A stretch of DNA of 64,000 bases from Saksenaea vasiformis B4078 (taxonomy: Eukaryota; Mucoromycota; Mucoromycetes; Mucorales; Saksenaeaceae). Of the stretch, positions 16,882-40,339 are shown in pieces (position 1 is the first letter of the stretch; each line of letters begins with the position of its first letter). The notes beneath the pieces are model-generated. The model was not told the origin of the DNA, ran no database searches, and was given only the letters and a program-made list of their open reading frames with translations. Location: the NCBI GenBank assembly GCA_000697055.1, contig JNDT01002363.1, positions 24,626-88,625 of the forward strand. The letters are read 5' to 3'. The position numbers were made by a program, and so were the translations under genes.

Positions 16882-17526
16882 GGCTATGTGTGGTCTGAGA
16901 ACCAAAAAAAGAAGCTGATATTTGTGTGCGTTTCGGCCGCCAGAAAGCAGTCCCAGCACAGAGAATACTCCATTTTGCATGTAATTTTGCGCCGCTTGAA
17001 AGGTCTTTTTGCACTGGCCAATGGCATTAATTTGCGTTGTCTGGAAATGAATTTTACAATAGCCGTTGTAGAATGGCACCCTTCAGGCTGTATCATTCGT
17101 TTGATCATGCCAAGGTAACGGAGGAAGACTTAGAAATGTCCCATTATCTATATGCATGCGTACGATAATGAATATGACCCTCCAATCAAGATGATGGAAA
17201 ATTGGCCTTAGCTGATATCCTCCATGCTCAGCTATCGAAGTCGTAAGATGACTTTACACGGTGTATATATATACGCCACGAATACTACTCATCTCAATTT
17301 TTCGTACGTTGAGAAAGGTCCAGCTTGTCGTGTCTGGAGATAAACAGAGGCTGTACCTTATGTCGCTACCTGAATATATTTAATCTCAATCACCGACAAT
17401 ATAAATACCAATGTAATCTAATATTAGTTCTTGGTCTACCTTTTCTACCGAAATAAACGACACCCCTCAGTCTCACTGTACTTCTCCAGTACCGACACAA
17501 CACAGCTGCTATCCCGGGTGGCATAA
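16882..17526. other. Intergenic, upstream of RPB3
   Basis: No supported gene. The first 200 bp are the RPB3 5' region, where the frame stays open upstream of the ATG. The rest is AT-rich with short frames only. Confidence 0.4.
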
Positions 17527-17605
17527 CACTATGGAAAACCGGTTCCTGACGGATACGTTTTTACTCAACGAAAAGTAGTCAATCAGGAACCGGTTTTTCA
17601 TAGTG
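17527..17605. repeat. 79-bp hairpin with 23-bp arms (MITE-like)
   Basis: The left arm CACTATGGAAAACCGGTTCC is mirrored at the right end by GGAACCGGTTTTTCATAGTG, around a 33-bp loop. The same arm type, diverged, bounds the element at 19396-19536. A Tc1-like transposase remnant lies between them, so the two hairpins may be the ends of one decayed element. Confidence 0.7.
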
Positions 17606-17639
17606 CAAAAAGAAATTCTTTGAAATGCTTAAAGGTTTA

Positions 17640-18420
17640 ACATATTGATCTTAGTTTACATAGCTGTCTAGTCCGCAAATGGAGTATCATATCGAAAAAG
17701 GTGGAAACGCCTCCCGCAGCAAGGAATTCTGATCCAGTCATAGCATTGTGAAAGGAAAGCTAAACAGCGGGAGAAAATACAGATGAGATCTCACGAAGAA
17801 TTGCATCTTTACTTGATGTGCCTGGATTCAGCTTGCATACTTATAGAAATTTTAGCGGTTCTTTGGAAGCCATATCAGCGAAAGGCACTGTACCCAGCTG
17901 GAAACGGAGTTAACAACTGATAGGGAAGTTACAATCACTGCAGTATATGGTGCCATATCTGAGGCAGAGGTAATAGATATATCTTTGAGAAAGCCTCAGG
18001 CTACATCTGTGTCCAGAAAGAGAAAGCTTAACAAAAAAAAAGGCAAAAACAGTTCATGATCGGGTCGGTACACGACTGAACACTTCCTGCCTTTTATATC
18101 TAATGTAATGGACGTGCTGGATGAACACGATAAGAAATCCCATTACATCGTAAGGGACAATGATCCAATACACAGGCCAGCAGCTATGCGCGAGGTGGTT
18201 GAGCGCAGACGTTATAAATATCCTTATTTACTACCATATTCCCTTTTTCTAAATCCTATTGAAGAGTCTTGGCCAAAGGTAAAAGCAGGTATCAGGAGAA
18301 ATACTCTAGAAGCCGATGACAGACTTACAGATCGAACTTGTGAATTGGCAAATAAGGTAACTAGATCCGATTTTCAAGCCTGGGGTCGGCATGCTATGAC
18401 TTTTTTTACGCTATAAAATG
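17640..18420 (+). pseudogene. Tc1/mariner-like DDE transposase remnant
   Basis: The readable C-terminal part runs from about 18064 to 18416. GRYTTEHFLPFISNV leads into HYIVRDNDPIHR, which carries the second catalytic Asp. YLLPYSLFLNPIEESW, with the third acidic residue (Glu), follows, then VKAGIRRN. This is the DDE_3 layout of Tc1-like transposases. Upstream (17640-18060) the frame is broken by stops and frameshifts, and the N-terminal helix-turn-helix part is not readable. The copy cannot be active. Confidence 0.8.
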
Positions 18421-20007
18421 AAGAGCGAGAGGCGTAATATAGTTTAACACAGAGTCATAAATTATCGTGAGATCCTTACAGACAATCCCTGTTGCTATCT
18501 TCAGATAGAGAGCTCCTTCTGAAATAAGAAAACGGATTGTTAAAATCACACATCATTTTGCATGATTTCATAACAGAGCCATCTTATACCATTGCGAGAT
18601 AGGAAGGATCATCCGAATTTATTATTCGATCCTGAATTGAGGAAGTTCGGAACGAAGGCATATACGTAATAGTATTATCAACCTTCCTTCTTAAACTGAA
18701 TTTAATCTCCCTATCAGCTGGTATCTAGATTGATCGCGCCGCGTAAAGTATCGATCTTCTCCTTGCTGTCAACAAGGTTTCCTCCGCTTTCTATTCCTCA
18801 TCTTCTGGAACCACGTCAGATTAAAACCGTATTGACACTTTAATTTGAACCCACTCTTCAGCCCACTCGCGGCGACGCTTGCTGAGATATTGATCCTGGT
18901 GGCGATTCTTGCGTGGATCTCGACCCTGGCTGCGGCCACCGTATTGGCCTTCATGCAGATGTAGAGCACTATGAATGCTCCGACTCATATTGCTTCGGTT
19001 TGATATACTACAACAAACAATAAAGCCGGTGACTCTTGATTATATAGCTAGCCATGCATTGTTCTTTTTCTCTCTATTCAGCACCCATCAGAAATTGATG
19101 CTAGCTAAATTAGCAAGCATACTTTCACTTGTTTGTACAGCATCAATTCAGGAATCAGAGATCTGTTTTCGACTTCATAATACATGATCCTCAGTAGTAT
19201 CGTTCACATATGGTAGCTGTGCGTCTAACCTCTCTGATAAAACGTATTGACATAGAGATCCCCATAGATAGCTTAATCTATGTCCAGAAACATGACCATA
19301 ATGAACGCTGTGAACGATAAACATATCTTAATCGTCATTATTATAACTCATTCTATAGTAGATTAATGACGCTTGTAACGCACACATTCTTGAAACACTA
19401 TGAAAAATGGGTTCCTGCTTGACTATTTTTCCTTAACAAAGAAGCAGTCTATCGAGAACTGAGGTAGTACGGGACCCTGACGGGCTATTTTTCTCTTAAG
19501 GAAAAGTAGTCAATCAGGAACCCATTTTCCGTAGTGGACATGTTAATAGAAATTGCCGTGTGACGGCTCGAGTTGAGGTACTTGAAGTCCATCAAGTTTA
19601 TTTGTGACAACACTTCGGTACGTCCTTTTCTCTTCTTTCATTATGCTTCAATCTCTTTTTCAGTGGTGCTCTATAACGATAATCAACCTACTTGCAAATT
19701 TGCTAGAATGGACCTGGCATGATCTCGTATTGCTTTTAAAGATTAAGAAATCTATCGAAAAGAGTACGAGCTGGCACGTTCACTGGAAGGTGAGAGTAAG
19801 GCGTAAATGACTTGGGATTATTGAAATACACCTGTTTAGTTACCAGCAAGGACTGTGGTGCTGCTGGCCATGCTAATAAGCGGTTTAAGATCTGTCCCTT
19901 AAACACCAGACACGGCAAGGCGCCCGGTAAGCATACAAGGTACAGCTACTTGAAATTTCTCATCAACTCCTTTCTCTTTATAAGCTGCTTTCAAGCGAAA
20001 GCTTACC
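18421..20007. other. Intergenic with a stray zinc-motif fragment
   Basis: Apart from the element at 19396-19536, nothing codes clearly. A plus-strand patch at 19838-19925 reads KDCGAAGHANKRFKICPLN, a zinc-motif pattern that resembles the N-terminal finger of the adjacent Fanzor-like gene (CSTCGGTDHTRSSSKRCP). It may be an upstream exon of that gene or a partial duplicate. Confidence 0.35.
19396..19536. repeat. 141-bp terminal-inverted-repeat element (MITE-like)
   Basis: Ends are CACTATGAAAAATGGGTTCC and the complement GGAACCCATTTTCCGTAGTG, with internal segments resembling both ends of the 79-bp hairpin at 17527. It is too short to code. It lies 980 bp downstream of the Tc1-like remnant and about 470 bp upstream of the first Fanzor-like gene. 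Confidence 0.7.
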
Positions 20008-22493
20008 TTGACCAAACAAGCTGAGACATCGAAGGCAAAGAAACGCGGAAGATATCAGAAAGCTGAAGAAGCAACAAATATAAGCGCTTCAGGAAAACCA
20101 TGTTCGACCTGTGGTGGTACCGACCATACCCGATCGTCGTCTAAACGATGCCCCATGCATAAAGCATCGAAAAGGGACATCATTGCAGACCGGCTTGCCC
20201 AAAAAAATTATGAAACGTTCACACGCAAGCTACCCTTTTCATCTGTCGTACGCTCAGAGCACGAAGAAGCACTACGCACGAAAATCATACGGTTGTCAAA
20301 ATTTTTGCGCGAAGTAATCTTTCGTGCCCAATTACTCGTAAATTCGTATATAATCGCTAATTCCGATCGCGCAATGCCTTCATACGTATATACGCAGAAC
20401 TTCTGGTATTCCGTTAGTCAGCTGGTAATGGGAATCAACATCAGCAATAACAACAGTAACTTCCCACGCGAGATGTACGGGCATTGGGAGAATCTCTTAG
20501 CTCGTCATCCAACTGCTGTGTATCACGTTGGTGATTTTACGGGATACAGTGGTAGTCTATCGGCAGCGTGTGTCACATTAGCATCCACGTATTCCAACAA
20601 CGTAGTCGAGAACTTCGAAAGCCGAATGAAATTTTATATATCACGAAGGCTGATCAGCCTTCTACCAGTAAGATTCAAAGTCGCGAGGTACTACTGATTT
20701 ATTTTGCTAATGTAGAATTTGTACAAGAGTCAAGCTAAAGCAATCGCCGGAGATTATGTATACGAACGCTTAGTTAAGGGTGATCCATACTGGCCATTTC
20801 CTGATAAGCCAATGGACTCTGAAGTTGAATCCGTCGTGGAGACCATATGTTGCGAATTTACAGGATTAATGCCGGTAGAACCAACTACTGCAGAACGACT
20901 CTCTGCACGCCCTGGAGAGTACGTGCCGGTACTGGCTTATATCCTTAGAACGCACGAAGACGAACATGAGAAGGCAGGAAAAGAGTGCAAAGATTCGCCT
21001 CGTTTGTTCTCTTTATCACCATCACCATCTACGCATTGGCAATTTGTGTCAATCAATTGCAACGTTCTTACCGTCTTAACAGGCGTTCCACGTGGACGTG
21101 ATTACGATGCTCAGCTTGCTCAGTTCCATCAAGTGTTTAACTTTTCCAAGCTCGGCTATAAGACGTAAGCAAGCGCTCATTAGATAACTGTCTGATGCCA
21201 TTTTCCTGTAGCTTTGAACAACTGAAAAACTCGGCGAACGAGAGCGGTACAGCATTTAAGGCTGCTGTTCTGAGTGATGGATATAGCGTTGATATACAGT
21301 TTGCTCGAGCTCGGAAACCGGAAGCTGCAATCATCGACACGAGCCTTTCAGTTGACGATCTGACTATGGAGAATGTATATGACCATTTCACACCATGCGC
21401 CATAGATCCTGGTATTAATCAGGCTTTTACTGCTGCGTACGGCCAAAACAACGAGCGTCATGAAATAAGGCGATGTTCTACGAACGAGTATTATTCGTAT
21501 ACGGGTTCACCGAACAGAGATATACAGATGCAAGTAGAAAAGAAAGAACAAGGAGTCGAAGAGATTGAGAGCTCTCTGGAATCCGGAAAGACGTCTGACG
21601 TCGATTCATATAACCGCTATCTGGAGTGCATTTTTCTTCATATGAATACCTTATTCGATTTCTACGTCCGGGAAGAGCAATGGCAAGGTTCCACGGCTAT
21701 CAAGGGGTGCAAAGAGCAAGAGAAGAGATGGTTAACATTCTGGTATCTGGAGGCAAAAAGTACAATCGTAGAAAACGAAAGCGCACAAGATCAAATAGGA
21801 GAACACGCAAAAAAGGTCGCAAACGTCGTAAAGACGCACGGAGTAAGAAAAGCACGGCCGATGATAAATCATTAGCTCATTGGCAAGTACTTTTAATTAT
21901 ACCAATTTACTACCAACAGTAACTAATGAATTGCTAACAGTGTTCCTCGACCAAACACTTCTTCCGAACGAAGCACGCTCAGGAGAAAGGGATGCTTTCA
22001 TCAATGGAGGCCCGCAAATTTCACGAATGAGGGGAAGAAGACACCTTTGATTGTATTCGGCGACGGGATGTTCAATAACAGATGTAACTACAAGGGACAT
22101 CGCAAAGGTGTGGTCAATATCCTATGGAGAAGTTTGAAGAGAAGGGAAAGACGCGGAGAGTTACTAGTTGTAACAATTGACGAGTACCTCTCCTCGCAGG
22201 TCAGTACTATGACGCTGGCGACATCGATATGCTCAAATGTATGTTTAGATCTTTCATAATTGCTGAAACAGATCGCTTCAGAAAGTTGTAACCAGCGATC
22301 ACATCTCCCACCACAGCATCTTGGAATGCAAAACCTGTAAGACGTTGTGGAATCGGGATGTGATGGCAAGCAAGAACCTATTTCGGATTGCTGAATCGAT
22401 CTGGAGGGGCCAAGCCAGACAAGCCGAATTTGCCAGGTCTTCAAGGGACAATATCGCCGGTACGAATGCGGTTCCCTCCACCGGGAAGGTTTA
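20008..22493 (+). pseudogene. TnpB/Fanzor-like nuclease gene, copy 1 (decayed)
   Basis: Spliced gene similar along its whole length to copy 2 (25580-28012). Exons are 20008-20667, 20716-21164, 21212-about 21885, a further exon to 22199, and 22249-22493. The N-terminus has a zinc-type motif (CSTCGG...CPMH). The C-terminal half has the split RuvC-like nuclease of TnpB: CAIDPGINQAFTAAYG (first Asp), LIVFGDGMF, RRERRGELLVVTIDEY, then the zinc ribbon region with CKTCKTLWNRDV (last Asp). Damage: a one-base shift near 21669 (FY/GPGR...), a first ribbon Cys read as Phe (TTT at 22252), and an in-frame TGA at 22264. No ATG precedes the zinc motif in frame, so the true start is unresolved. Fanzors are eukaryotic, transposon-borne TnpB relatives; known members are RNA-guided DNA endonucleases. 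This copy is probably dead. Confidence 0.75.
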
Positions 22494-23179
22494 GATTTTT
22501 ACGGTAAGCTTGTCGTTACATATATAAAATTGAAATCAATTTTACTGATTGATCCTTTAGGTGCTCACACCGGTAAGTTCTTCTTCGGATCATCAAACAA
22601 GTTGCTAAATAATGAATGTTTGCTACGCTTAAAATGGTTTCTTGCGTCGTCAATCGAGAATTGTGTATATCGATTCTCAGGACGCAAAAAATCATTTTAG
22701 GCAACGCAAAACGTTCTACAACAAACAGTACTCCATGTAATACGCGCATTGCGGAACGAATTTTGCGCCAGTGACCAGAGACTTTTGCGTTGTTTCGATC
22801 TGAATGCCCATGACCACATGAAGGCTGATGGCTCTCCATTGAATATAAATGATGTCATCTCATTGGTTGTTGATATGTCTGACAATGATACACAAAACGA
22901 GTGGGCAGAACTGTCTCATTCAAATCCATCTGGTTTTGACTGAAAGATAGCGGGGAAGGAGGTAGTCATGTAAACGCCGACCTTATACGAATGCGTACAT
23001 TGACAGAAGCCTCATTATTTGCTGACGATAACAGAGATGAAAGCCTAACTGGCTTTGTCCACTTTCCGAACAGGCCATGTGTATAGCATGAGCATGAAGC
23101 TAGAACGAGAGGTTCATATAGGGAATACGCCCCATAGCAAATCGAAAAACTGCCTGATTTGGTGATTAAAAAATGACGA
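22494..23179. other. Fanzor copy 1 downstream flank
   Basis: Holds the shared ACGGTAAGCT motif at 22501, the hairpin at 22629-22700 and a plus-strand fragment at about 22700-22943 (RNEFCASDQRLLRCFD...) that I do not recognise. No gene is supported. Confidence 0.35.
22629..22700. repeat. 72-bp imperfect hairpin
   Basis: Left arm TTAAAATGGTTTCTTGCGTC pairs with the complement of GACGCAAAAAATCATTTTA around a short loop. It lies about 130 bp after the end of the copy 1 coding homology. It may be a small foldback element or the end of the Fanzor-bearing element. Confidence 0.6.
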
Positions 23180-23560
23180 AGCAACGCTTACGACGAGTAT
23201 AAATGTCCGAACGCTCCACGTTATATCAAAATGTACAACAGGGATGAAGAAGGATCTCTACCTGGCGTTCAGAGGAAGTCTCGTACTAGATATTATAGCG
23301 GGCTGAATGAAGCTCATTCCGAGTTTCTTGTAGATTACATTGACAGAAATCCCGCTGCTATCCTGATTGATATAAAAGGAGCTTATATGAGGCGTTTGAA
23401 GACTTAGTTATCTCAGAATCAACATTGAATAGGTATTTAGTCAATAAATGTTGTATAAACCTGAAAAGCTGGAAAAGCTTCTTGCGAAAAGAGAAAGCTG
23501 CAGAATGGGAAAAAGATGCAAGACTTGGAATTCACTAACGGTGGCACAGTTATACAGTAA
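23180..23560 (+). pseudogene. Second Tc1-like transposase remnant (N-terminal helix-turn-helix part)
   Basis: In pieces over three frames one can read KMYNRDEEGSLPGVQRKSRT, YYSGLNEAHSEFLVDYIDRN, and FEDLVISESTLNRYLVNKC. This is the style of the paired helix-turn-helix start of fungal Tc1-like transposases (GL.. HS.FL.D.ID.NP, then S.STL.R.L). Frame breaks occur near 23390 and 23400, and the catalytic domain is absent. It is a different piece from the remnant at 17640-18420. Confidence 0.55.
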
Positions 23561-25579
23561 TCACTATCATGAACGCCTATCACCAAGAAGAAAGTTCACT
23601 TAAATCTGAATTCTGAAAAGACTGAACAAATATAAATAGGCAGACAAATTCACAGTCTCGAGGGATTCTATCCGTTTCCCTTTTGCTTAACTCATTCAAG
23701 TGCCACACGTGGTACTGGATAAAATCATATCATTAAACAATGAAATAAATAATATATGTATAAGGTTGCTTTTGGTGGAGTTCATCGGCCAAATACCTAA
23801 GTTATTGTTCGACAGTAGCGCGGACACAGAGATTGTCCCATCCACCTTCTCTTCTGCTCGCCTCTCTCCTTCTCGATGATAATAATTTAGTATAGTGTAC
23901 CCTAGTAATTATTGTTTCTCTCGAGATAAATAAGGAAGATGGTAACGCAATCTCTGGATCCACCTCTCGAAGGATGATCATCATCAAAGACTAGGTTTCA
24001 TTTAATTGTATTTTTTCGTGACATAATACAGTGTCCTCTCCGTTAATTCAGTCCCCCGATACCAATGTTCTATTGTTTAGAAAAGTATGAAGTTATCAAA
24101 GACCGAGATCGGCTATCCAACCACTCTTTATGGAGATCCTTCCTCGGTTTGTGGAGATGATTCTTCAGGTTTCTCCGTGTAACAATGGAGATCTGCTATG
24201 TCCAATCCACAGATGAACCACAGTGAGCTTTCTCTTTATTTCGCCCCTCGCCTATTTACAGGGTTACACTGTTACCAAGACCTTGGATTAAGAGGAGACA
24301 CCGTAAAATGTGTATTCACAGCACCCTCACTAAGAATTGTACTATAACTATCGTAAAAGCGCAATTTGTCATATTTTTAAGGCGAGCGAGCGATGGAGAC
24401 TGAATGGTGAGTATGATAGTATCTGCATAAAAGTGATAGCCAACTTGTTGTGTTGAGTAGATCTTTGTGTATCAGGCGTCAGTGGAACTGTCAAGCGTAA
24501 ATAACGAAGAAGTGTAAGTGTTTCCAGGATCGCTTAAATGATTAGACATGTCCCATAGTATACTGAATGGAGGGTTGTGTAGCGATTTCATAGTGTTTGA
24601 CAGCGGCGCTATTGCATTGTCTGCATTTGCGCAATTTCTTTCCTCCTCAACTGTATCAGCGAGCCAAGTTGTTACCGACCAGCTTGATGAAGATCGAAGC
24701 TAGTTGATAATGGTTGACCTCGATGCCGTAAAAGACAAATAAGAGAAAAAAGGTCTCGTGTATCTTTATTGATTGACTTTAATATTTATATCCAATGCTT
24801 GTGTTATTATGTCTATAACACAAGTTAAGAATTCCTTCTTCGACATACACTGGCCACTCTTCCTGCCTTTGAAGTCACACGAGCAAATATTTTAAAAGTG
24901 CTCCTACTTGATGGACGGATTCTGTTGCGCATCCGCAAGCCATCCGTTTTTCTACATGAGCAGGAAACAAGGACTGGAATTCAAAGGATACTTGACTCAG
25001 GTCGTTAACTCCTGCCTTAAATGATGTGTTCTCCCACAGGAAACGACTGAAAGCATCTGAGTAGTTGAATCTGAGGCTTTGATTGTTCTCACGGTAACGA
25101 GAGATCTCATCCATCAATACTTTGTTAAATACAATGGTCTCCTCTAAATACGCTGAAACATTGCCAATTGAAGGCAAAATTGAACACAACAGCATGTCAA
25201 ATGGTGCGTCGATGTAAAGGATATCCGTGAATTTGGACTGAGGGATATTACGTACAAATCACAATTTCCAAGTGCATATGGCCTCTCATGGGTTCATCCG
25301 TCATATTCATGGAAGGCTGATCGCTGTTACAATCCCTGATCCTGGTGTTCAAGAACTATGAAGCAAATTCGTTCAACTTATAAGTATCTATCGGATCGTA
25401 CAACTTTTTATCTTTAACTCTACAAACGTGAGTTCTGGATATCTCTTCGTTAACGGATTTTAGCTTTTTAACCGCTGGAGCGGAGTACTGGGGGAGGAGG
25501 AAGGGGGGAGTACCGCGTCGCCGACAGCATGAAGAACAGAATGAGAGTGTAAAACGGTCTAAGAAACGTGGGCGACAAG
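23561..25579. other. Gene-poor interval with a possible GDSL-esterase-like fragment on the minus strand
   Basis: The minus-strand stretch 24893-25260 reads IPQSKFTDILYID, AYLEETIVFNKVLMDEISRY, and FNYSDAFSRFLWEN. The order (Pro-containing strand, FN..L...I..YR, then a D.F..F segment) resembles the C-terminal part of GDSL/SGNH esterases. It is short, lacks the catalytic GDS and DxxH motifs, and is probably a relic. The rest of the interval shows nothing. Confidence 0.3.
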
Positions 25580-28012
25580 ATGCAGGCGAGCACAAGTAAC
25601 ACAAATTTCGTTCCAAAGCCATGTCCTGCTTGTAGTTCAACTACACATCGCAGCTCTAGATCGCGAGACTGTGCTGCGCATAGCAAGTCAACCCAAGAAA
25701 TTCTGGAAGACCATCTTGAAAAGAAGATGAAGTTATTTACTCGGAAATGCACTGTGCACTCGGTTGTCCGAGAAGCGTATCGCGAAAGATTTTGTCAAAC
25801 TACACGAGACCTTTCAGTATTTTCCAGAGAAGTCATTGCAAGGACGCAGTTATTCGTAAATCAGTACATCCTGGATCATGAAGTGGTACCTGCGATTTGC
25901 TTTACACAGAACTTTTTTTATTCCGTTACGCAATTCGTACTTTCCAAACCAGTGACAACTACCAACGACAAGATGCCTGAAGACCTCAAGAGCGCATGGG
26001 AGGCGTTTAAAAACGAACACTCATCTTTGCAGGAAATTCCGCCTACAAGTCTCCGCTATTCTGATGTCCTAAGTGAAGCATGTATCACACTCCCCACATG
26101 CTATGTGAACAACATAGTGGAGAATTTTGAAACAAGCACTGTATCTTTGTTCAGCACAAGCTTTCTGTATCATTCCACGTAAGTCTGGTATCTTGCTGTC
26201 ATACTCCACCGGGACTAATATCTATCTATAGACTCTTACGAAGAAAGACGCAATGGCTATTGCATCTAGCTATGCTTTCGAACGAATTGGTGGAGGGTCT
26301 CCCAGCTGGCTGGATTCTGTCGAGGTATCCTTACCTTTGGTGGCTATCATGGACAGTATTTGTGAGGAACTTGAAGAACTCACGCCCAAACCTGCAACAT
26401 CTCAGACCATATCCGCATCTTCTTGTTCGTATTTACCTGTGTTGAAACGCATCTTGGAATCTTATGAAGAGGAGCATCGCATAGCCGGAATTTCACAAGA
26501 GGCGTCAGATGATAGCTCTTTGGAATCTTACGAGGATGATCATTGCATAACCGGAAATTCAGAAAGAGCGTCAGACGATACCTCTCTTCCAAGGCGTTTC
26601 GCGATTTCACCGAGGCCCACAACCGGATGGAGGTTTATCTCTATCAATGCAGAACTTCTAGCTAGCCTATTGCCTGTGAGTAGGCCGAAGAAACCTAGCG
26701 ACTACCCTAAAACGTTCTTTGATGCCCTTGATTTCTCCTGTCTTAGAATTAACAGGTATGAAGCACAAAGGCTTACCTTTCTACAAAATATTCACTTTGT
26801 TATATACTTGCATTTAGCTGGGAATCATTTACCGAGGATCCAGACTGCAAGTTCGCTTGCAAGATTCTCACGGATGGATACACAGTTAGTTTACTATTTG
26901 CAAGAAGGGCAAGAGTAGATGTGGCGAGCACTGCGCTGGACTTGGAAGATTTCAGCATTGACGAGGTCAAGCATAATTTTGAGCCGTGGGCTCTTGATCC
27001 GGGGCGTAATCAATTCTTTACAGCCGTAGATGGAAGTGGCTCCGGGTCGCATCAGATACGACGGGTCTCCAATAAGGAATACTACGCAATGACTGGTTCG
27101 GGGAGAAGGGCAAAGAAAATACAAAAAGAAAAAGGTGCACAAGGAATTACCGAGATAGAAACAAATTTGCTTACGAGCAAAACGGCTTCCTCCGACTGTC
27201 ACCATGAATTTGTGGCATGTTTCCTTGAAAACTTCCCGGCATTAACCGCTTTCTACGGCCCTCGAATGGCGGAGACACGGTTTAGAAACTACCAAGGCAC
27301 GCAACGAGCTCCAGAAGAACTGGTGAATATACTTATCAATGGAGGCAAGAAGTATTGTAAGGGAAGGAGAAAAAAGACGAGGCACAACCGGAAGAAAAGA
27401 AAAAGGCGAGCTTGTAAACGCAAGGAAAAGCAAAGATTGCGGTGGCGCTCTGGGTAATTAATATTATACATACATAGGTGTAGATATTGATGAAAGCCTT
27501 TCACTTCAGCCCAAGGGAATCGACAACGAGATTCACTGTCAACAAACCCCATCCACATACAAGAAAATGGAATCCGTCTTCTTTTCAAACAACCAACAAA
27601 ATTCCCCTTATAGTCTTTGGATCGGCCATGTTTGGCGCGAGTGGGCATGCCACACGGAAAGGAAAAAAAGCAGCCGTGGTCAACAAATTATGGAAAACGC
27701 TTAAAAGAAGAGAGCGTCGTGGCGAGCTGGCCGCCGTGACCATAGACGAATTCTACACATCTCAAGCTGGTTCGGTTCATTTTATGTCCGTGCTTATTGA
27801 AATAGTATCTCTAGGTTTGCAGCGCTTGTATGACAAGAGACTTGAGCAAGGTAACAACAGCCGATCGCATCTCCCACCATGGTATTGCAGTATGCAACAA
27901 CTGCCATACACTTTGGCAAAGGGACGTCAACTCGGCCAAGTCCATGTATCATATTGCCGACTCGGTCTGGCGTGGGCTCAGACGCCCAGCGGAATTTTGT
28001 CGACCTGAATAA
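25580..28012 (+). CDS. TnpB/Fanzor-like RNA-guided nuclease homolog, copy 2 (nearly intact)
   Basis: Five exons: 25580-26178, 26232-26755, 26818-27453, 27510-27765, 27815-28012. Phases agree throughout except exon 1, which is one base short of frame near 26127. The N-terminus has a zinc-type motif (CPACSSTTHRSS). The C-terminal half holds the RuvC-like parts: ALDPGRNQFFTAV (first Asp), a basic NILINGGKKY...KKTRHNRKKRK linker, IPLIVFGSAMFG, RRERRGELAAVTIDEFYTSQ, the zinc ribbon VCSAC...VCNNC, and LWQRDVNSAKSM (last Asp). Fanzors carry a shifted catalytic glutamate next to the TS..C..C ribbon, and IDEF fits. Intron 4 has a GC donor (CAA|GCTGGT); the equivalent intron in copy 1 has GT and the same length (49 nt). 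Predicted size is about 740 residues. Function is inferred from motifs only. Confidence 0.75.
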
Positions 28013-28098
28013 TTCATCCCGAGATCGCCACTACGAATGTGGTTTGTTGTGTTGCTTTCCGGCAACAAACATTTAGATATTTACGTTTACGGTAAGCT
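28013..28098 (+). other. Conserved 3' flank of the Fanzor-like copies (candidate guide-RNA scaffold)
   Basis: Downstream of the copy 2 stop, similarity to copy 1 continues. Shared pieces include GATCGCC/TATCGCC, TACGAATGTGGTT versus TACGAATGCGGTT, a TTTAGAT stretch, and ACGGTAAGCT (28089 and 22501). In TnpB and Fanzor systems the guide RNA comes from, or overlaps, the 3' end of the nuclease locus. Conservation past the stop fits that, but plain shared ancestry explains it equally well. Confidence 0.3.
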
Positions 28099-29392
28099 CA
28101 ACACGACTTTAGTACATTCTTCTGAACGTTTCGCCTCCCGTATTGTCCAACTATAACTTGCTATATACGTCAATTGGGTAAGTGATCATTCTTTATTCAA
28201 AGAAAACTGGATTCACACCGTTTCTCCGTATCTCTTACTTCCAGGACGCCAAACTTGCTCTATTGGTTCACGCAAAATTATTTCTGACCTGGCGTATATT
28301 GTTTTGAAAAATCCAGTAATACGCGCATAAAATTTGGTTCAAGACTAACGTTGTAACTGTTTGAATGTTGTAACTGTTTGGAGGATCAGCTTGTACAATT
28401 AGTTGTATACACTATTAGATATTTATGCAACAGAGAAGGTTGCTGTCGATATTAAAGTGAGAAGACGTCAAGAACTTAGCAAGTCAGGTCTCTGCCAACT
28501 ATCTGGGAACGGGGTCGGCAATTCATATCACTTCCAAGAACAACGAGAAGACGGATTGGAAGAGCGCATTGGAAAGCACGTATATTCGTGTTTGGAATGG
28601 ATAGCGTAATCTTAGGCAGCTAATGAAGAGCCCCATTTGCCCATAAACTGTGGATTGATACAGCAGTGACTGAGAAAAGCTATTGAAGTTTCAAACAACC
28701 AACATGAGATACGTACTGTCAACAAACACAAAACCGGAAGATGCACGTTCAACTCTTTAGCAACAAATAGGTTTGTTCCTTCAATGTCTTCAGCGAATAA
28801 TAGATCATGGAAGATTGCAGTTTTTGTCTGTGATCCGTGCGGGAATAGATCCTTCACCGGGATGAAAGTGTTACCCACGATACCGCAACCATCGCGGCCT
28901 CGATGCTAGCAAAATAAAGGCGCCCCATCTCATCTCATTCAGATATCATAATAGGTTGGGACACGTCATGCGTTTCGGTAGCTTTTCTCTGAAAATCTTA
29001 AATCAACTTACAGGTAATGCAAGTGCTTGTCTTTATCGGTTCTTTCCTAGTGTGAAACCCATCTCTTCACAGGTGGAAATTTATTTATAGCAGAGCGACA
29101 AAGTACTTGATAAACAATATGCAAGTTGTAATACAATGTCAGTTGCAGGCATTGCTTCAACTCAGCAAGTGTCCAATACTTGCATGATAATTTTGTAGTC
29201 TCATCACTTTGTCGACTAAAACTATTACTCACCACGCACGATCCGGTCGTCGGATTAGTATTGACTTTTTATTCTCTTCTCGTTTAAGTCAAGGAGGTCT
29301 AGGGACGCTTAAAGTCTCGCGTTGGTAATGAAAGAAGAAAAAAGAGCAAGTGACGTAGGATGCATGTAACTCGAGCGAGAATTTCGGGGTGA
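28099..29392. other. Intergenic, unrecognised minus-strand fragment
   Basis: A minus-strand stretch at about 28715-28880 reads NTFIPVKDLFPHG, AIFHDLLFAEDIEGTNLFVA and ELNVHLPVLCLL. It looks protein-like with a possible GT-AG intron after VLCLLT. I do not recognise it and see no full gene. Confidence 0.25.
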
Positions 29393-29443
29393 ATGGGAAA
29401 CCAGTGTGTTCCAACTCAGCTTTTCCCCCTTCTTCATACCATT

Positions 29444-32400
29444 ATGAGCAATGAAGATCCGCATTCTCGTCATCCCGCGTTCGACTTGCGTAAAACCATT
29501 TCACTTCGACGTTCGGGAAACATGAAGATGGCTGGTGAAAACGAACCCAAACGATCGCTTGATGACTATGTTTCAAGCAACAAAGACGTACAGGCTGCTT
29601 TTAACCAGTTAACAAGGAATAGAAGTAGCCGAGCTGGTGGATCAGAGGCTAGTCATTCTGCGTTTGAGGGGCAGCATGGGGTCCCGCATGCAGCAATAAA
29701 TTCAGGCAGCAACAATTCATTCACACAGCGGCTTATTGATCGAGGCATAGCTGTGCCTTCCTCTATATCTCACTGGAAATCCGCTGCGTCTTCAAGCGAT
29801 CCCATTCTCTCTTCTTCTACTGGATCTTATCTGTCCTCTTCAATGGGATCTTGCAATAACGACTTTGACTCAAGCGCTTACTATGGTTTGTCGCCATTCG
29901 TCACATCGTCGTCGTTCCTGATGACAAGCGAATCAACCGGTCACCTTGGTGCAGACATGGCACAAGGAGGGGTACATGGACGCCATGAGTCCTTAAGACA
30001 CCGTTATGATAAAGAAACCGCCAATAGCACGCAGAGGGCATCTCAGAATAGTGAAGAAGAGGAGGAATATCACGTTATGTCATCACCCGAATTAGCAAAG
30101 TTACACCATCATCGCTCAAGAAGATCGCGACCAGACAGAGATGATAGTGATATTGAATTATCAGATGACGATCTGGAAGATCCTAGAAAGCAACACTCAA
30201 CACCGAATCTACTTACGACAACGACACCGTTTCTATTACGAACGGCAACTGCACGACGACGGCATCACGATAGTGTCTCAAAAGCCCGTTCGCCTTCACC
30301 ATTGGCGCGTACTTCTATGTCTACTGTCGAAGAAGCCGCGTCAGGCGAAGAGGAATTGGCAGAGAAAGGTGTTTCAAAACAATCTGCACCACGGCCAGGC
30401 ATCTTTAACTTGCGAGATCCTGAGAGTTACGCAGACGTGTATCCCTTAAGAAGCACGAGTAAGGATGAAGAAAAGGGGAACGATATAGGAGGCGTCGGTG
30501 TTGCCCAGGAAGATGACCATGTGCAACAACACGCAGTGCTAGAGGCACGTACTACCGTTGATGCGTCGGATATAGACGGTGGATCACGCGATCTTGCAGA
30601 AAATTATAAAAAGGCACCTGATACTCCAGAATCAGATCCACGGGAGGCCCCACCTCAGCTTTCCGCATCGATCAACAAACTGAAAGAGATGCTTACCTCA
30701 AAGCGGCCGTCTTCCGCCAAACTTAGCGCCCTACTATCGCCAACAAGTGACTCTCACGATGCTCTCCAACGATTGGATTCGCAGGCTGCAAAAAAGCCAT
30801 TTACAACACTACCACCCCCACCGCCACTTCGCGAACCACCTCGGAAACATTTGCTACAGACACCAGTATTTCAAGTAGTCAATGCCAATACCGTTAAAGA
30901 TCGATACCTTTTTTTATTCAGCGACCTTCTGCTGATCTGTAAACCAATTATGGACGAAAATATTATTGTCGGAGGAAGTGTCACAAATAACCGGGAGAAC
31001 AGCAGGTACCGTTTCAGGCCAAATGAAGACAGCCTGTTTCAAGTCAAGAACATTGTTGAACTTAGCAAGGTCACATTGTATATTTCTCGTGAAGACCAGC
31101 AACAGCAGCAGTTGCAACATAGACCGTCTATCATCGTCAGTCCTGATGCTCAGTCAGTATTACCTGCTCCACGCAAGATGCATCCAGTGTTAGCATCGGC
31201 GCTACGCAAGTTTGAAACGAGTGCAGAGAACGGAATTGCTTATCTGATTGATAAACAAGTTCTCACGAACGATCCCTTAAGCATAGCGAACTTTTTATTC
31301 AAAACTCCCGACTTGAATCGGCGACAGTTAGGTCACTATCTTACAGATCCGAAAAACAGCGATGTGTATCATGCCTTCTTGGACTGCTTCCGACTCGTGG
31401 GTTTCCGACTTGACGAAGCATTGCGTATTCTACTTACGACTTTCCGATTACCTAGTAATTGGGAAGCTTTAGAGTATCTGATTGAACGATTTGCAAAGAA
31501 GTGGCATGATGCAAACCAGAACGTTGTTAAGTTCCATGAAGACATGGTCGTCAAAGTTATTGTGGCAATGCTTTTCTTGAACGCTGAAGTCTGGTACGAT
31601 GCGAACAGCGAAAGAGATGTATTCTGGTGGGCTCGTGAAAGGAAGGAACGAAGGGACAGACAACGGATGACGCGTCGGGGAAGCATGGACCGGAAGAGTC
31701 ACCGCGAGAGCGTGGCTGTTGAACCTCTGCATTATATCACAGCATTACGAGCAGAGGGGAGGACGCAATCGTCAATGTCAGATTTCTGGGATAGATGGAC
31801 TCATTTCGATCAATATGCACTAGTACCGCGCGAATTCATGGAAGATATGTATCGATCTATCATGGCGGAACGTCTTGAAACGGGATGGGACAATAAACCA
31901 GGTCGCGCATCACCGGTGCAAGACAACGCTGCAGAAAATTCAGATCAATCGGAACAGGATGTAGTTATTACAGTGACACCTCACCGGTTACCTACACGAC
32001 TTACGAAGGGCGTTCCCTCTGCACCGATTACGATTTCCATTCCAGCTCCTGATTCAGGATTGCAGATTAAATTACGTGGACAGGACCTAACGTGCGAACC
32101 AAACGTACTCGACTTTTCATTGTCATGTGTCCAGACGTTCACTATCACGGGACATACGTTGGGACGGACAAGTTTGATGTTTATCAAATCCGGAGAACAT
32201 GCGGGTCACTATGTGAGTCCGACATTGCCGCGTACGAAGAGTATTGTGGTGGAACGTCCATTTATGCGATATACTTTCCAAATCGGCTTTAGCCATACAG
32301 ATATGCGTGCTGTCAAAGCGGCGGCGGCAGCAGCAATGACAAGTGGAAAGAGTGCGAGTGGAGGAAGTGCAGTAGATCGTAGCAGCAATTCGGTGAAAAG

Positions 32401-33037
32401 TCCGACTGACATGCCCTCTCCAGTGATGATGACAAATGGAGATATCGGTGCCCAAGCGGAAGCAGAGGAGTCTAGTGGCGTTATCGGACAACGAGAGCAA
32501 CCAGCAATGGTAAGACGAAAATACACATTCAGCGTTGAGACAGAGAACGAGCGGCATGAATGGATCAGTCGCCTCAGAAGTTTAAGCGGCAATGTCTGTA
32601 TTGGAACGGATACGACGAAGGAAAAACCGGTGAAAGCAAACAAGGACTATTCGTCGGCGGAGGAACGTGTAGCGCTCCAAGTATTGAAAGAAGTGCTACT
32701 GGCAGATGAGGTGAAAAAGGGGACAGCAAACGTGGCAGCATTACGGTCGACCATTCTGGGAAGTCGCTCAAGCGTATTCGACCCGCATCAAAAACCTACA
32801 ATCGGTTTAACGCCATCTTCAAAGAATATGGATGATCCTGGTCAAGATGATAGTAGCGTCGGGGACAAGAAGAAGGCTGAAGAAAACAAAGGGGGTGATC
32901 GGGCTTCACTCATGCCTGTGCCAGCAGGGACAACTAATGTAGTTACGAAACGAGGACATGAGATCATCAAACTCGTCGTTCAGAATTCCATGGTTCCCCT
33001 TATGCTCGGATTTCTTCGAAATCAAATACCGGAGTGA
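29444..33037 (+). CDS. Sec7/PH-domain ARF guanine-nucleotide exchange factor-like protein
   Basis: A single intronless frame; an upstream ATG at 29393 would add 17 residues, but 29444 (MSNEDPHSRHP) looks the better start. Numbering here is from 29393. Residues 1-480 are low-complexity (Ser, Glu, basic). A PH-like segment (KDRYLFLFSDLLLICKP) covers about 490-575. A Sec7 domain covers about 610-740 (AYLIDKQVL, IANFLFKTPDLNRRQLGHYL, VGFRLDEALRILLTTFRLP). A second split PH-like region covers about 870-1065 and ends YTFSVETENERHEWISRLR. Sec7 proteins activate ARF GTPases on Golgi, endosome or plasma membranes. The catalytic loop here reads FRLPSNWEAL instead of the usual FRLPGE, so the glutamic finger is replaced by Asn689. 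The family call is good; exchange activity is doubtful. Confidence 0.85.
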   Translation: MSNEDPHSRHPAFDLRKTISLRRSGNMKMAGENEPKRSLDDYVSSNKDVQAAFNQLTRNRSSRAGGSEASHSAFEGQHGVPHAAINSGSNNSFTQRLIDRGIAVPSSISHWKSAASSSDPILSSSTGSYLSSSMGSCNNDFDSSAYYGLSPFVTSSSFLMTSESTGHLGADMAQGGVHGRHESLRHRYDKETANSTQRASQNSEEEEEYHVMSSPELAKLHHHRSRRSRPDRDDSDIELSDDDLEDPRKQHSTPNLLTTTTPFLLRTATARRRHHDSVSKARSPSPLARTSMSTVEEAASGEEELAEKGVSKQSAPRPGIFNLRDPESYADVYPLRSTSKDEEKGNDIGGVGVAQEDDHVQQHAVLEARTTVDASDIDGGSRDLAENYKKAPDTPESDPREAPPQLSASINKLKEMLTSKRPSSAKLSALLSPTSDSHDALQRLDSQAAKKPFTTLPPPPPLREPPRKHLLQTPVFQVVNANTVKDRYLFLFSDLLLICKPIMDENIIVGGSVTNNRENSRYRFRPNEDSLFQVKNIVELSKVTLYISREDQQQQQLQHRPSIIVSPDAQSVLPAPRKMHPVLASALRKFETSAENGIAYLIDKQVLTNDPLSIANFLFKTPDLNRRQLGHYLTDPKNSDVYHAFLDCFRLVGFRLDEALRILLTTFRLPSNWEALEYLIERFAKKWHDANQNVVKFHEDMVVKVIVAMLFLNAEVWYDANSERDVFWWARERKERRDRQRMTRRGSMDRKSHRESVAVEPLHYITALRAEGRTQSSMSDFWDRWTHFDQYALVPREFMEDMYRSIMAERLETGWDNKPGRASPVQDNAAENSDQSEQDVVITVTPHRLPTRLTKGVPSAPITISIPAPDSGLQIKLRGQDLTCEPNVLDFSLSCVQTFTITGHTLGRTSLMFIKSGEHAGHYVSPTLPRTKSIVVERPFMRYTFQIGFSHTDMRAVKAAAAAAMTSGKSASGGSAVDRSSNSVKSPTDMPSPVMMTNGDIGAQAEAEESSGVIGQREQPAMVRRKYTFSVETENERHEWISRLRSLSGNVCIGTDTTKEKPVKANKDYSSAEERVALQVLKEVLLADEVKKGTANVAALRSTILGSRSSVFDPHQKPTIGLTPSSKNMDDPGQDDSSVGDKKKAEENKGGDRASLMPVPAGTTNVVTKRGHEIIKLVVQNSMVPLMLGFLRNQIPE

Positions 33038-35250: not shown

Positions 35251-35324
35251 TGCTCACTACAGGGGTCGAACCTGTGACCTTGGCGTTATTAGCACCACGC
35301 TCTAACCAACTGAGCTAAGCGAGC
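35251..35324 (-). tRNA. tRNA-Ile (anticodon AAT)
   Basis: A 74-nt cloverleaf on the minus strand. The acceptor stem GCTCGCT pairs with AGTGAGC (one G-T pair), with discriminator A. The D-arm is GCTCAGTTGGTTAGAGC, which contains the A box. The anticodon stem TGGTG/CGCCA encloses loop CTAATAA, anticodon AAT. The T-arm is ACAGGTTCGACCCCTGT with the B box. There is no intron. Just downstream on the minus strand is a T-run (TATATTTTTG) that would end Pol III transcription. It is the only tRNA I find in the window. Confidence 0.95.
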
Positions 35325-35740: not shown

Positions 35741-36194
35741 AAGAGATCAATAGATTTAGTGAGACTAGTTGTGAAATTTGATTAATTGAAAGATGAATAA
35801 TAATGGTATAAGTGTAGTTTTGTATAAGAGAGAAAAAAAAGAAAAAGAAAAGAAAAGAAAAGAAAAAAAAAATATGTCATTCGGTGTAAACCTTCCATTT
35901 TTCTTTTTTTATACATAGTTATTTTTATTTTATTTTATATTGGATGGAGATTAATAAATGGAGATGAGAAAATATATTGTTATGCATAGAAAACGGCATA
36001 GTAAAAGACATATAGACACTTCAAAGGACCTGCCGCCATTTCTATTGCAACCCTGCTGATCACATGTCCATCCATTGTTCCTGATGATGTAGGATCCCAT
36101 TTTTTTATTATTTTATTTATTTTTTTTGCTTATTTTAGTTTTTTTTTCTTTTGTTATCTTTTTATTTTGTTATTTTTTTTATTTCTATTTATTT

Positions 36195-36426
36195 TTATCT
36201 TGAAACTACCAGTATTAAATAAATGGGGATGAAGAAAAATGATGGAGAAAAAGAATGAAGAATACTAAGATACAGCAACCGCCGCTTCAGATTAAAAACC
36301 TCCAAATCACATGGTTTATACCTTCCACATTTGTGCTGCGTAGCAACACAGGAAGGTTCACAACGTAGCAACACAGAAAAGTTCACAATGTAGCAACACA
36401 GGAGAGTTCATACCGTTGTAGCGCGT
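36195..36426 (+). repeat. LTR-cluster segment with three 25-bp units, inverted partner at about 41110-41330
   Basis: Contains GTAGCAACACAGGAAGGTTC-like units three times (about 36341-36411). The whole stretch is the reverse complement of about 41110-41330, which has two such units. Confidence 0.7.
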
Positions 36427-36690
36427 GTCGTATTCTACATACAGAATGACTAAATCATATCACGACATCTACAGATAAACCTCACAGACGAGAAACCGGA
36501 TAAATAATGATTAAGCTGAAGTACAAATCATATCAGGGTCCAATATCCGATTGTACCTGAAACCTCTTTAACATCGATCATTGGTTCATCATTGTAAAAT
36601 TTTTATTTCTCAAGAACACCGCCACTGCTATAAAAGCTCCCTGTAAAACAATAATAAACAATCATCTAAGAGTCTCAACGTATTCCCGTT
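36427..36690 (+). mobile_element. Solo LTR-like element A (about 264 bp)
   Basis: Begins TGTCGTATTCTACATACAG and contains a TATA box (TATAAAAG, 36629) and, 20 bp later, a poly(A) signal (AATAAA, 36653), the usual U3-R order of an LTR. The end is near CGTATTCCCGTTGT. An inverted copy lies at 39950-40199 with over 90 percent identity by eye. No gag, protease or reverse transcriptase sequence is adjacent. Confidence 0.6.
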
Positions 36691-37036
36691 GTTATCCATC
36701 TCTCAATTAACCAAATTTCACAGCGCGCCGATTTTTACTCTGTGGCAATCTTGCCTTTTTATTTTCTTTTATCCACAATATCGATTTTACTTTGTTCTTA
36801 TTTTTTTATTCTTTTTCAAGTGGATCAATAAAAGATGTCGCCTTGATACAATATATCTTTCAAAGTTGTAACACAACTTTGAAGTCCTCTAGGTTCTTAT
36901 CATTAGGCTCATGGAATCTTATACAAACCGACATCCACTCTGACAACGGCACATGGCCTCTGGTATCACTCCCAACAAGACCCCCAAACCTTATCCAAAG
37001 GCACATCTACTCAAAACCGCATACAATCGAAACCGC

Positions 37037-37145
37037 ATATGATCCAAAGTACATACGATCCAAGATGCATATGATCCAAGATGCATACGATCCAAAGTGC
37101 ATACGATCCAAAGTGCATATGATCCAAAGTGCATACGATTGAACC
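37037..37145 (+). repeat. 16-bp minisatellite, about seven units
   Basis: Unit GCATACGATCCAAAGT with variants (CATATG, CCAAGA), nearly perfect in the last units. The inverted partner arm at about 42800-42880 has only around four degenerate units, so copy number changed after the duplication. Confidence 0.8.
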
Positions 37146-37204
37146 AATTACCTGCCGTCATTATCCATTCGAGCCATGATAGACTAGATGATCATCCACT
37201 TAGC

Positions 37205-37470
37205 AAAATTATTTTCTATCGATCTATTTTGTATAAATACCCCTCCAATTCAATGAATAAAACATTAGGTTATAATAGCATATTCTTCTCTTGGTTATCT
37301 CAAGCCATCTCAAAAGGTCTTTTCCAAAGGTTCTTCTCTTATTTCTCAAACCGCCTTTTATTGCTCGCCTCCGTTGGTTATTCCCACCGTTAACCCGAAT
37401 CCATTGATTCCTTTTCTTTTATTTTCTTTTTATTTTACTCTCTGTCTGACAAGCGACGACAATTCCGCTG
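37205..37470 (+). mobile_element. LTR-like element B1
   Basis: The core is TTTGTATAAATACCCC (TATA), then GAATAAAACATTAGGTTATA, AAAAGGTCTTTTCCAAAGG and CGACGACAATTCCGCTGTC. The TATA to AATAAA spacing of about 25 bp suggests an LTR. Related copies are at 37920-38080 with a 38330-38470 continuation, at 39003-39150, and inverted at 40780-41060 and 42430-42740. Confidence 0.6.
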
Positions 37471-37919
37471 TCCTCTTTTTATTTCTCTTTTTATCTTTGA
37501 CGAAACTCTTTGACGAAACTCTTTGCTGATTCAAGGTAACCATATCAGCGATCTTACTAACGGACATATTTTATTTTATCCAGATCTCCTTGGATATTGT
37601 CAGTACCGACAACAGTTACTCTATTCAAACCTTTCTTTTTCTTTCTTCAAGCTTTACCGCTTAACCAAGTCTTGGTGTTCGACTTAAATCTACACCTGGT
37701 GCTCACTCAATTCTGAACCTTTCTATCAACGAACATTACTCAACTGATACCCTTAACAACAATCACCGTCATCCAGCTTACGCTACGACAACACTTGGAA
37801 CAACACTACCCATATACAGTAACCGAAAAATACAGCGTAACACCGTAGCAACATGGGTAAATTAGTAACAAGGCAACCCGGGAGAATTTAGTTTCAAGAT
37901 AGATTTCTTTTTTTGTATC

Positions 37920-38470
37920 AATCAATTTTTGTATAAATACTTCAACTTTTTGTTCAATAAATCAACAGGTTAAAACAGCATCTTTCTCTTGGTTTTTCTC
38001 AATTACTCAAAAAGGTCTTTTCCAAAGGTTTTCTTTTATTTTTCAAGCCGCCTTTCTTTATCTGCTCTGGAGGATGGTCGTGTCTCATCGGAACGTCCGA
38101 AAGTTTAGTAAATGCTGCATGTTTGCACATCACACGTCATCTCTTTCAAACGACCCTTCTAAATAAAATGAGTGCGTCCTCTTTAGAAGCGTTTATGCTA
38201 TTGTACAGCGGTGATCATTTCAATCGATCATATTTCTTCGAACATCGGCGGCCGCTCAAACGTTGCATATTTATTCGTCATCTTTTGATTCAGAAAACGA
38301 TCTCATATCTACAAACCTTCAGGACATCCGCCTCTGCCTCCGTTGGTTATTCTCAAGAAACCACCGTTAACCAGAATCTATTGATTCTTTTTCTTTTTCT
38401 TTTCTTTTTCTTTTTTTTTTACTCTTTTTCCTGACAAACGACGACAATTCCGCTGTCTTCCCTTTTCATT
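37920..38470 (+). mobile_element. LTR-like element B2, interrupted by about 250 bp of unrelated sequence
   Basis: Homology to B1 runs 37920-38080, stops at CTGCTCTGG, and resumes with CCTCCGTTGGTTATTC at about 38338. The 38081-38337 insert is absent from B1 and from the inverted partner at 40780-41060, so it arrived later. No clean target duplication is visible. Confidence 0.55.
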
Positions 38471-39002
38471 TTATCTTTTCTTTTATTTCTTTTCTTACCG
38501 AACCTCTTTTATTCCTTCTGATCCAACCCGCTGATCACTCGAAAAATATCATTTTTTTATCTCTATTTGATATCCATATTTGACAGATCCAACACGAGAT
38601 CATAGGTAATCATACAAACGATTTAACTAACGAATCAGATTCTTTTATCAAACAGGAACTCTTCCAACCTTGTCTTTATCGACAACCTCTTTTCTTTTTC
38701 TTTTCTTTCATTTATCTTCATTGATAAATACTCCAAGTCTTGGTGTCCGACTCAAATCTACACCTGGTGCTCACTAACATCGAACCAAATTCCACGAAAC
38801 TGAACTCTTATCTGAACCGAACTTTTATTCATTCTTATTTTCTTATTACCGCTTCTGTCATATCGCTGAAGTCTACCTAAGAACTTAACTACCCGAAATT
38901 TCCAGCGTAGCAACGACTACCGCGTAGCAACTCGGGTTTTAAATACCTGTAGAGCACGTCGGGTTTATCTCGCACACCTTAATTATTTCCTTATTCTATC
39001 TC

Positions 39003-39150
39003 TCGATTTTTGTATAAATACCCCACCTTTTCAATGAATAAAACATCAGGTTATAACAGCACAATCTTCTCTTGGTCTACTCTAGCCATCTCAAAAGGTC
39101 TTTTCCAAAGGTTTTTCTTTTATCTTTTCCTCAAGCCTTACCGCTTACCC
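39003..39150 (+). mobile_element. LTR-like element B3 (partial)
   Basis: TGTATAAATACCCC, GAATAAAACATCAGGTTATA and TCAAAAGGTCTTTTCC match B1. The downstream half is missing; the sequence jumps to the AAGTCTTGGTGTTTGAC segment that lies further along in the other copies. Confidence 0.55.
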
Positions 39151-39949: not shown

Positions 39950-40199
39950 TTGAGACTCTTATATGATTGTTTATTATTGTTTTACAGGGAGCTTTTATAG
40001 CAGTGGCGGTGTTCTTGAGAAATAAAAATTGTACAATGATAAACCAATCGATGTTAAAGAGGTTTCAGGTACAATCGGGTATTGGACCCTGATATGATTT
40101 GTACTTCAGCTTAATCATTATTTATCCGGTTTCTCGTCAGTGAGGTTTATCTGTAGATGTCGTGATATGATTTAGTCATTCTGTATGTAGAATACGACA
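39950..40199 (-). mobile_element. Solo LTR-like element A, inverted copy
   Basis: Reverse complement of 36427-36690, with the TATA box and AATAAA conserved. Downstream in its own orientation it continues GTAAGGTGCCAAGCTGC, unlike the left copy, which marks the element edge near CCCGTTGT. Confidence 0.6.
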
Positions 40200-40339
40200 C
40201 TAGTATTTATTCTCGAAAAAAGAAAAAAAGAATCAATCTTTTAAAAAACTTTTCTATCTGAGTTGATGATATTTATGTCTTGTTGACTTTGGAGTAGATT
40301 GTTAGCTTATGTCTTAGATATCGCTATTGTCTGTTGTTA

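Follow-up and report, generated by a model that had tools for sequence, protein, structure and literature searches.

A decayed Fanzor1 gene of Saksenaea vasiformis adjoins a conserved RNA, probably an omegaRNA scaffold, with a predicted intron in sister families

We analysed a 64-kb stretch of Saksenaea vasiformis DNA (the window) together with the genome searched (38.7 Mb, 666 contigs). The explanation that we consider likely is that the window carries a decayed Fanzor1 gene in a Tc1/mariner-type transposon, and that the adjoining RNA is an omegaRNA scaffold that is split by an intron, and spliced, in sister families. With more reserve, we lean towards a guide-RNA scaffold that a spliceosomal intron interrupts; the nuclease would then be armed only via host splicing, and both versions of the scaffold would occur in one genome. 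The Fanzor gene itself belongs to a known family and has decayed. The new elements are the conserved RNA beside the gene and the predicted intron in its third hairpin, H3; the kind of gene is known.

The Fanzor1 gene

The gene lies at positions 25580-28012 of the window on the + strand and has five exons, separated by introns of 49-62 nt; an adjacent transposon (element 1) also bears a Fanzor gene. Exon 1 (25580-26178) encodes an N-terminal CxxC..H..C motif. Exon 2 (26232-26755) is followed by exon 3 (26818-27453), which holds the TDG motif of the WED domain (KILTDGYTV, codon 26870) and the DPG aspartate of RuvC-I (ALDPG, Asp codon 26996). Exon 4 (27510-27765) encodes the displaced RuvC-II glutamate in IDEFYTSQ (Glu codon 27748), where, by sequence, IDEF stands immediately 5' of TSQ. 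After intron 4 (27766-27814), exon 5 (27815-28012) encodes the C4 zinc ribbon (CSAC, codon 27818; CNNC, 27893) and the RD of RuvC-III (Asp codon 27923). TDG, DPG at RuvC-I and an alternative (displaced) Glu at RuvC-II are described as Fanzor1 signatures in PMC10711439. The distance from the first RuvC Asp to the TS pair is 234 residues, the spacing given for the Fanzor/TnpB motif in PMC3627910 being 125-275, and the gene fits the full pattern D-X(125-275)-[TS]-[TS]-X-X-C4-X(5-50)-RD.

Joined exons 2-5 matched the TNB zinc ribbon profile PF07282 with 36.7 bits (E 4.9e-9; cut-off 26.3); exon 5 alone scored 18.1 bits, under the cut-off. At least 137 matches to PF07282 and at least 155 matches to exon 3 were found in the genome. 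A protein search with the joined exons returned two proteins in total at E < 0.001. One, P0001 from Apophysomyces sp. BC1021 (Mucorales), is the only close named protein (E 1.7e-104, 56% identity, 41% of the query). The other, P0002, matched 20% of the query (E 1.4e-7) and itself matched the solved SpuFz1 at E 4e-10, which gives a chain of homology from the Fanzor gene through P0002 to SpuFz1. Direct comparison with solved structures gave weak matches only; GtFz1 came first, with the zinc ribbon matched at E 0.013. Taken together, the sequence evidence supports the assignment of the gene to Fanzor1, the eukaryotic relatives of TnpB, with RuvC signature residues.

In these respects the preliminary description of the locus was borne out. 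The five exons, ALDPG, IDEF-TSQ, CSAC...CNNC and RD that it had listed are all at the codons given above. Its Fanzor/TnpB identity agrees with the profile match, for which it had proposed an HMM search, with the motif spacing and with the P0002 chain. The N-terminal zinc-type motif to which it drew attention is present as the CxxC..H..C stretch; since P0002 and the neighbouring Fanzor of element 1 have one too, this copy is not unusual in having it.

Exon 2 also holds a 66-nt tandem duplication (26454-26585, 80% identical), which yields a 22-residue acidic repeat and seemingly occurs in two relatives (L051 and L061) as well.

Two lesions and past selection

Near 26127 the reading frame of exon 1 is disrupted. 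Two relatives, each with 87% identity in the aligned portion, have a different length at this point. Intron 4 has the donor CAA/GC (the slash marks the cut). We tried to compare this donor at 19 loci and could read it in 13 other copies; 12 have GT and one has CAG/GC. The donor of intron 4 also lacks the G before the cut. If it fails, the zinc ribbon and the last Asp are lost. With the frame break and the CAA/GC donor, the copy at 25580-28012 has no intact reading frame, and it is probably a pseudogene with two lesions rather than one. Because a second probable lesion lies at the last donor, there is no support for the earlier statements that the gene is nearly intact, that it would be complete with one base restored near 26127 and that it could still encode a nuclease. 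The interval first proposed, 25580..28098, does contain the gene; as limits of the whole transposon it falls short, since that extends from 22729 to 28318.

It is very improbable that the copy still works, with the CAA/GC donor in use and the frame break either an assembly error or bypassed. The signature residues are present, GC-AG introns are known and one other copy has a GC donor as well; against this, the copy departs from its relatives at two separate points, and its donor has no G before the cut.

In exon 3, 18 of the 19 compared copies were saturated at synonymous sites, and dN to the nine nearest was 0.23-0.32. Such low dN at saturated synonymous sites speaks for long-term selection on the Fanzor protein. 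The sole unsaturated comparison (L037) gave dN/dS of 0.52. Among 18 closely related pairs, dN/dS ranged from 0.12 to 0.85 with a median of 0.50, a mixture of decay and constraint.

Two transposons arranged head to tail

The Fanzor gene is carried by element 2 (22729-28318, +), a Tc1/mariner-type transposon with TA at both ends. Element 1, the neighbouring Fanzor transposon (16966-22730, +), precedes it head to tail, and the two abut at one common TA (22729-22730). The limits of element 1 follow from a copy on another contig (C391), which matches most of 16964-22730 in five pieces (93.8-97.2% identical) and places the ends at 16966 and 22730, each at TA. Element 1 includes the DDE part of a transposase (18060-18413, +; PF13358 DDE_3, 29.6 bits, cut-off 28.6, an 86-residue piece) and a multi-exon Fanzor gene (20002-22494, +, start approximate), whose frame is broken too.

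The left end of element 2, TACTCC...TTTTGCGCC...TTTTGC, was placed by its likeness to the left end of element 1, without a second copy. The right end, ...AAATCCAG followed by TA, is the point at which homology with one relative (L057) ceases. It closes a right terminal repeat (28265-28318, +, start approximate) that contains two CGCAAA-like boxes and ends in CAG/TA. The right ends of several families have the two boxes and CAG/TA in common and differ in their flanks; some copies depart from this form. Many alignments stop at 28102, and we considered this position as the right end; it was dropped because relatives continue past it and the common CAG/TA end lies beyond. We looked for the left end as a near-identical counterpart of the right repeat and found none; the comparison with C391 supplied it.

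Element 2 has a probable N-terminal transposase remnant (23177-23535, +) without a Pfam match of its own. At another locus (L063), a piece matching 23177-23535 is followed by a piece like the DDE part of element 1. The transposase of element 2 seems, from these matches, to be reduced to its N-terminal part. With terminal repeats, TA at both ends and DDE_3 in element 1, the Fanzor gene is carried by a eukaryotic transposon of a non-IS607 type.

Several other features of the two elements were recorded. A genome search that allowed up to 2 mismatches located the first 19 bases of the left end of element 2 at a single place. A guide of element 1 reading past its right end would read the left end of element 2. 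Two places in the window have the 12-mer TAATACGCGCAT, 22738-22749 (left end of element 2) and 28317-28328 (from the right TA into the flank); it was perhaps copied during repair. Two related palindromic, MITE-like repeats lie at 17527-17605 and 19396-19536, the second where the C391 copy differs in length. A minus-strand open reading frame of 127 codons (24878-25258) gave no match in a Pfam search, and the segment 25065-25323 recurs on several contigs.

Elsewhere in the window we found a gene with a Sec7 domain (29393-33037; Sec7 130.2 bits, weaker PH-type matches), a tRNA gene on the minus strand (35251-35324; Rfam 64.5 bits) and an AT-rich region (36000-42000) with a strong swing of GC skew from about -0.32 to +0.21.

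A conserved RNA 3' of the Fanzor gene

Alignment revealed a conserved block 3' of the Fanzor gene, in which two hairpins, H1 and H2, covary and a third, H3, is conserved. In element 2 this candidate omegaRNA scaffold occupies 28024-28100 (+), with H3 continuous and intron-free at 28080-28096; it matched a covariance model of the block with 71.3 bits, element 2 being one of the sequences from which the model was built. In element 1 the corresponding scaffold exon (22453-22503, +) comprises H1, H2 and the 5' arm of H3 (TTTACG), and its H1 overlaps the last codons of the Fanzor frame.

We measured covariation of H1 and H2 in 19 distinct copies against shuffled and slid controls; relatedness is kept by the slid control and not by the shuffles. 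Paired cells amounted to 92.0% (76.2% after shuffling), cells with a change on both sides numbered 45 (14.9 after shuffling), and the covariation score was 0.539, compared with 0.263 for shuffled and at most 0.219 for slid versions. Two measures were weak. Pairs changed on both sides numbered 10 versus 7.3 shuffled (22 of 500 shuffles reached 10), and further pair types numbered 20 versus 20.4 (377 of 500 shuffles reached 20).

A pattern for H1 in which the loop and the outer pairs were fixed and two stem pairs left free gave 79 matches genome-wide and 6 when reversed. Both free pairs were standard in 66 of the 79, which are paralogues and hence not 79 independent trials. Most of them (61) either have a listed Fanzor piece no more than 1.5 kb away on their 5' side or fall within a match to the Fanzor locus of element 2. 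The other 18 are not near a listed piece; we do not claim them as elements without a Fanzor gene, some of them being at contig ends and the Fanzor lists being incomplete. The block model matched 47 of 67 locus sources, many of which overlap or are among the building sequences. Nothing in Rfam matched the H1-H3 RNA, and the block model found no H1-H3 block in eight Fanzor-type loci of other families (L001-L008). Four of these loci (L003, L005, L006 and L007) form another Fanzor-type subfamily without H1-H3, with a conserved stretch of its own, CTCTTGCCTTACAGTTGTAAGTATA..., 3' of the gene.

Where both could be placed in a copy, 124-283 nt separate the aligned block from the right end, intron included. 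H3 is 153 nt from the right end in element 1 and 222 nt in element 2. In L064 the block start is 184 nt from the TA, or about 127 nt if a 57-nt intron is subtracted, within reach of the 150-nt GtFz1 RNA. A possible further intron of element 2, GTAAGT...CTTACTTCCAG (28178-28244, +), lies between H3 and the right end and is shared with L057.

From its position and structure, the H1-H3 RNA is probably the scaffold of an omegaRNA. An unlikely alternative is that the interruption described below belongs to the 3' UTR of the Fanzor mRNA as a normal intron, that the hairpins serve this mRNA and that the true omegaRNA is separate, unspliced and near the right end, as in Spizellomyces. Distances speak for it: the three solved Fanzor1 omegaRNAs are 75-150 nt long according to PMC11423790, and that of SpuFz1 runs into the right end as described in PMC10432273, whereas the hairpins here stand 124-283 nt before it. 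It is opposed by the 61 of 79 covarying H1 matches that accompany Fanzor sequences, by the overlap of H1 with the last codons in element 1, an arrangement also described for the reading-frame end and omegaRNA of GtFz1 (PMC10432273), and by an intron that splits a hairpin continuous in the sister group.

An intron-like interruption of H3

The two groups of families differ at H3. In the family of element 2 the arms are adjacent (TTTACG, 4-5 nt, CGGTAAG), without an intron. In the family of element 1 a piece of 49-59 nt with donor- and acceptor-like ends divides the hairpin, always at the same point. In element 1 itself the predicted spliceosomal intron is 57 nt long (22504-22560, +; GTAAGC...CTTTAG), and the 3' scaffold exon (22561-22577, +; GTGCTCACACCG plus GTAAG) provides the apical part and the 3' arm of H3. 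Intron-bearing (element 1) and intron-free (element 2) scaffolds thus stand side by side in the window. An intron would predict such a pattern, in which a scaffold occurs both uninterrupted and with an insertion, bounded by splice-site-like ends, at one fixed point.

The pattern TTTAGATNNTTACG (ending in TTACG) followed by free bases gave 68 matches genome-wide and 9 when reversed. We read 67 rows after TTACG: 43 continued with GT[ATG]NG[CT], 20 with a second TTACGG arm (a continuous hairpin) and 4 with neither. The 43 donor-type rows had GTTAGT (19), GTACGT (10), GTAAGC (8), GTATGT (3), GTAAGT (2) and GTGGGT (1); position +4 is free and the G at +5 is kept, so that this group varies as splice donors do.

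A longer pattern (TTACGGT, then 35-65 unspecified bases, AG, 11 unspecified bases and GGTAAG) itself demands GT, AG and GGTAAG, and gave 46 matches compared with 3 for the control. These include 33 of the 43 donor-type rows; the other 10 do not fit the 12-nt format, and the L057 copy of one such family retains the donor, CTGAC and CTTCAG. Another pattern, whose tail was left free, gave 1250 matches and 2064 for the control; it was too unspecific and was left out of the counts. The 46 matches comprise eight interior families of 49-59 nt, whose mean identity to one another is 0.41 (0.37 after shuffling). Their donors are GTAAGC, GTAAGT, GTATGT, GTACGT, GTTAGT, GTGAGC and GTGGGT, with GTAACC once, and their acceptors TTTAG, CTTAG, GTTAG, TCTAG, ACCAG and CGTAG. 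Several have TTTACTGAT- or CTAAT-like stretches 5' of the acceptor, which may be branch points. As in spliceosomal introns, the ends are kept, the interior drifts and the length is like that of the coding introns (49-62 nt). An Rfam search gave no match to a group I intron at the gathering threshold in the window, nor any in 22300-28500 when E values as high as 1 were admitted.

Removal of the intron-like piece brings TTTACG and NTGNNNNCAYCGGTAAG together, and the product can fold as a hairpin. The five inner pairs are standard throughout in 12 of the 15 distinct 12-mers, and 3 break a pair; the outermost inner pair requires the C of the upstream exon, and only pair 1-10 shows much variation between standard pairs (GC, GU, AU). 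H3 has no covariation in its outer arms because these hardly vary. Free folding of the joined pieces gave H3 for element 1 and L065, and another fold won for L064 and L045. The hairpin could also form with the intron still inside.

A further, improbable reading does without an intron and takes the stretch from GT to AG either for a long single-stranded segment of the RNA or for a DNA signal that has been conserved. GGTAAG also occurs in intron-free families and can pair with TTTAC there, so the donor-like word could be partly structural. The first word nevertheless shifts among GTTAGT, GTACGT, GTATGT and GTGGGT in the manner described above, and eight unrelated interiors have retained the length and both ends. 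We had also considered GGTAAG as a splice donor in every copy; this was rejected for the element 2 family, in which there is no clear acceptor and GGTAAG can pair with TTTAC.

Discussion

The order of parts in these transposons is transposase, Fanzor, structured RNA at or just past the Fanzor end, and right end with TA. We propose that, in an intact copy, H1-H3 would be the omegaRNA scaffold bound by Fanzor, and that the 3' part of the RNA would cross the right end into the flank and so supply the guide. Fanzor would then cut an empty site matching this guide. Scaffold binding and a flank-derived guide are proposed here by analogy with SpuFz1, GtFz1, PpFz1 and the Fanzor1s of insect viruses. 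In the large group of families that includes element 1, the short spliceosomal intron within H3 would be removed before or during maturation, and the mature guide RNA would arise by splicing. The element 2 family would use the same hairpin without the H3 intron. The gene with its motifs and lesions, the ends of the elements, the covariation of H1 and H2 and the splice-site-like ends at a fixed point were observed directly; from them we infer the identity of the omegaRNA, its extension into the flank and the removal of the intron.

If the scaffold must be spliced, this would be a route to guide RNA of which the text available to us of PMC10432273, PMC10711439 and PMC11423790 makes no mention. 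Fanzor activity would then be tied to the nucleus and to splicing, which could explain loci missed by searches for contiguous guide RNAs and suggests that searches for eukaryotic scaffolds should permit introns. The intron-bearing and intron-free scaffolds are a natural pair for testing.

Comparison with known systems

The word intron is absent from the main text of PMC10432273, PMC10711439 and PMC11423790. Our search brought up no publication that describes an intron within the guide RNA of a Fanzor; most subscription papers lie outside its range, and one may exist elsewhere. PMC3627910 already describes Fanzor1-bearing Mariner elements, as well as Fanzor1s of Mucor, Rhizopus and Phycomyces. 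The transcript of an omegaRNA is described as extending about 15 nt past the right end, this part being the guide (PMC10711439, PMC10432273).

SpuFz1 in Spu-1 of Spizellomyces punctatus is similar in that a Fanzor1 gene lies between terminal inverted repeats with a putative TA target-site duplication (PMC3627910) and a conserved RNA lies between the stop codon and the right end (PMC10432273). It differs in that its omegaRNA is a 75-nt scaffold with a 14-15 nt guide at the right end (PMC10432273). The scaffold described here is further from the right end and is interrupted in many families. Parasitella, the source of PpFz1, itself belongs to the Mucorales. PpFz1 (Parasitella parasitica) is likewise a Fanzor1, and has a 75-nt omegaRNA of two stem-loops (PMC11423790).

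PGv-1 and PUl-1, described by Bao and Jurka in 2013, also combine Fanzor1 with a Mariner-like transposase and TA duplications, and the text available from that report mentions no guide RNA for them (PMC3627910). They differ in belonging to other hosts and viruses. Many bacterial IStrons carry TnpB, and a paper in Science in 2024 reportedly described a conflict between splicing and guide RNA in IStrons. These too unite an intron and an insertion sequence in one mobile element (PMC4227781). The intron of IStrons is a self-splicing group I intron, whereas the one predicted here is a short spliceosomal-type intron within the scaffold; IStrons are nevertheless the nearest parallel.
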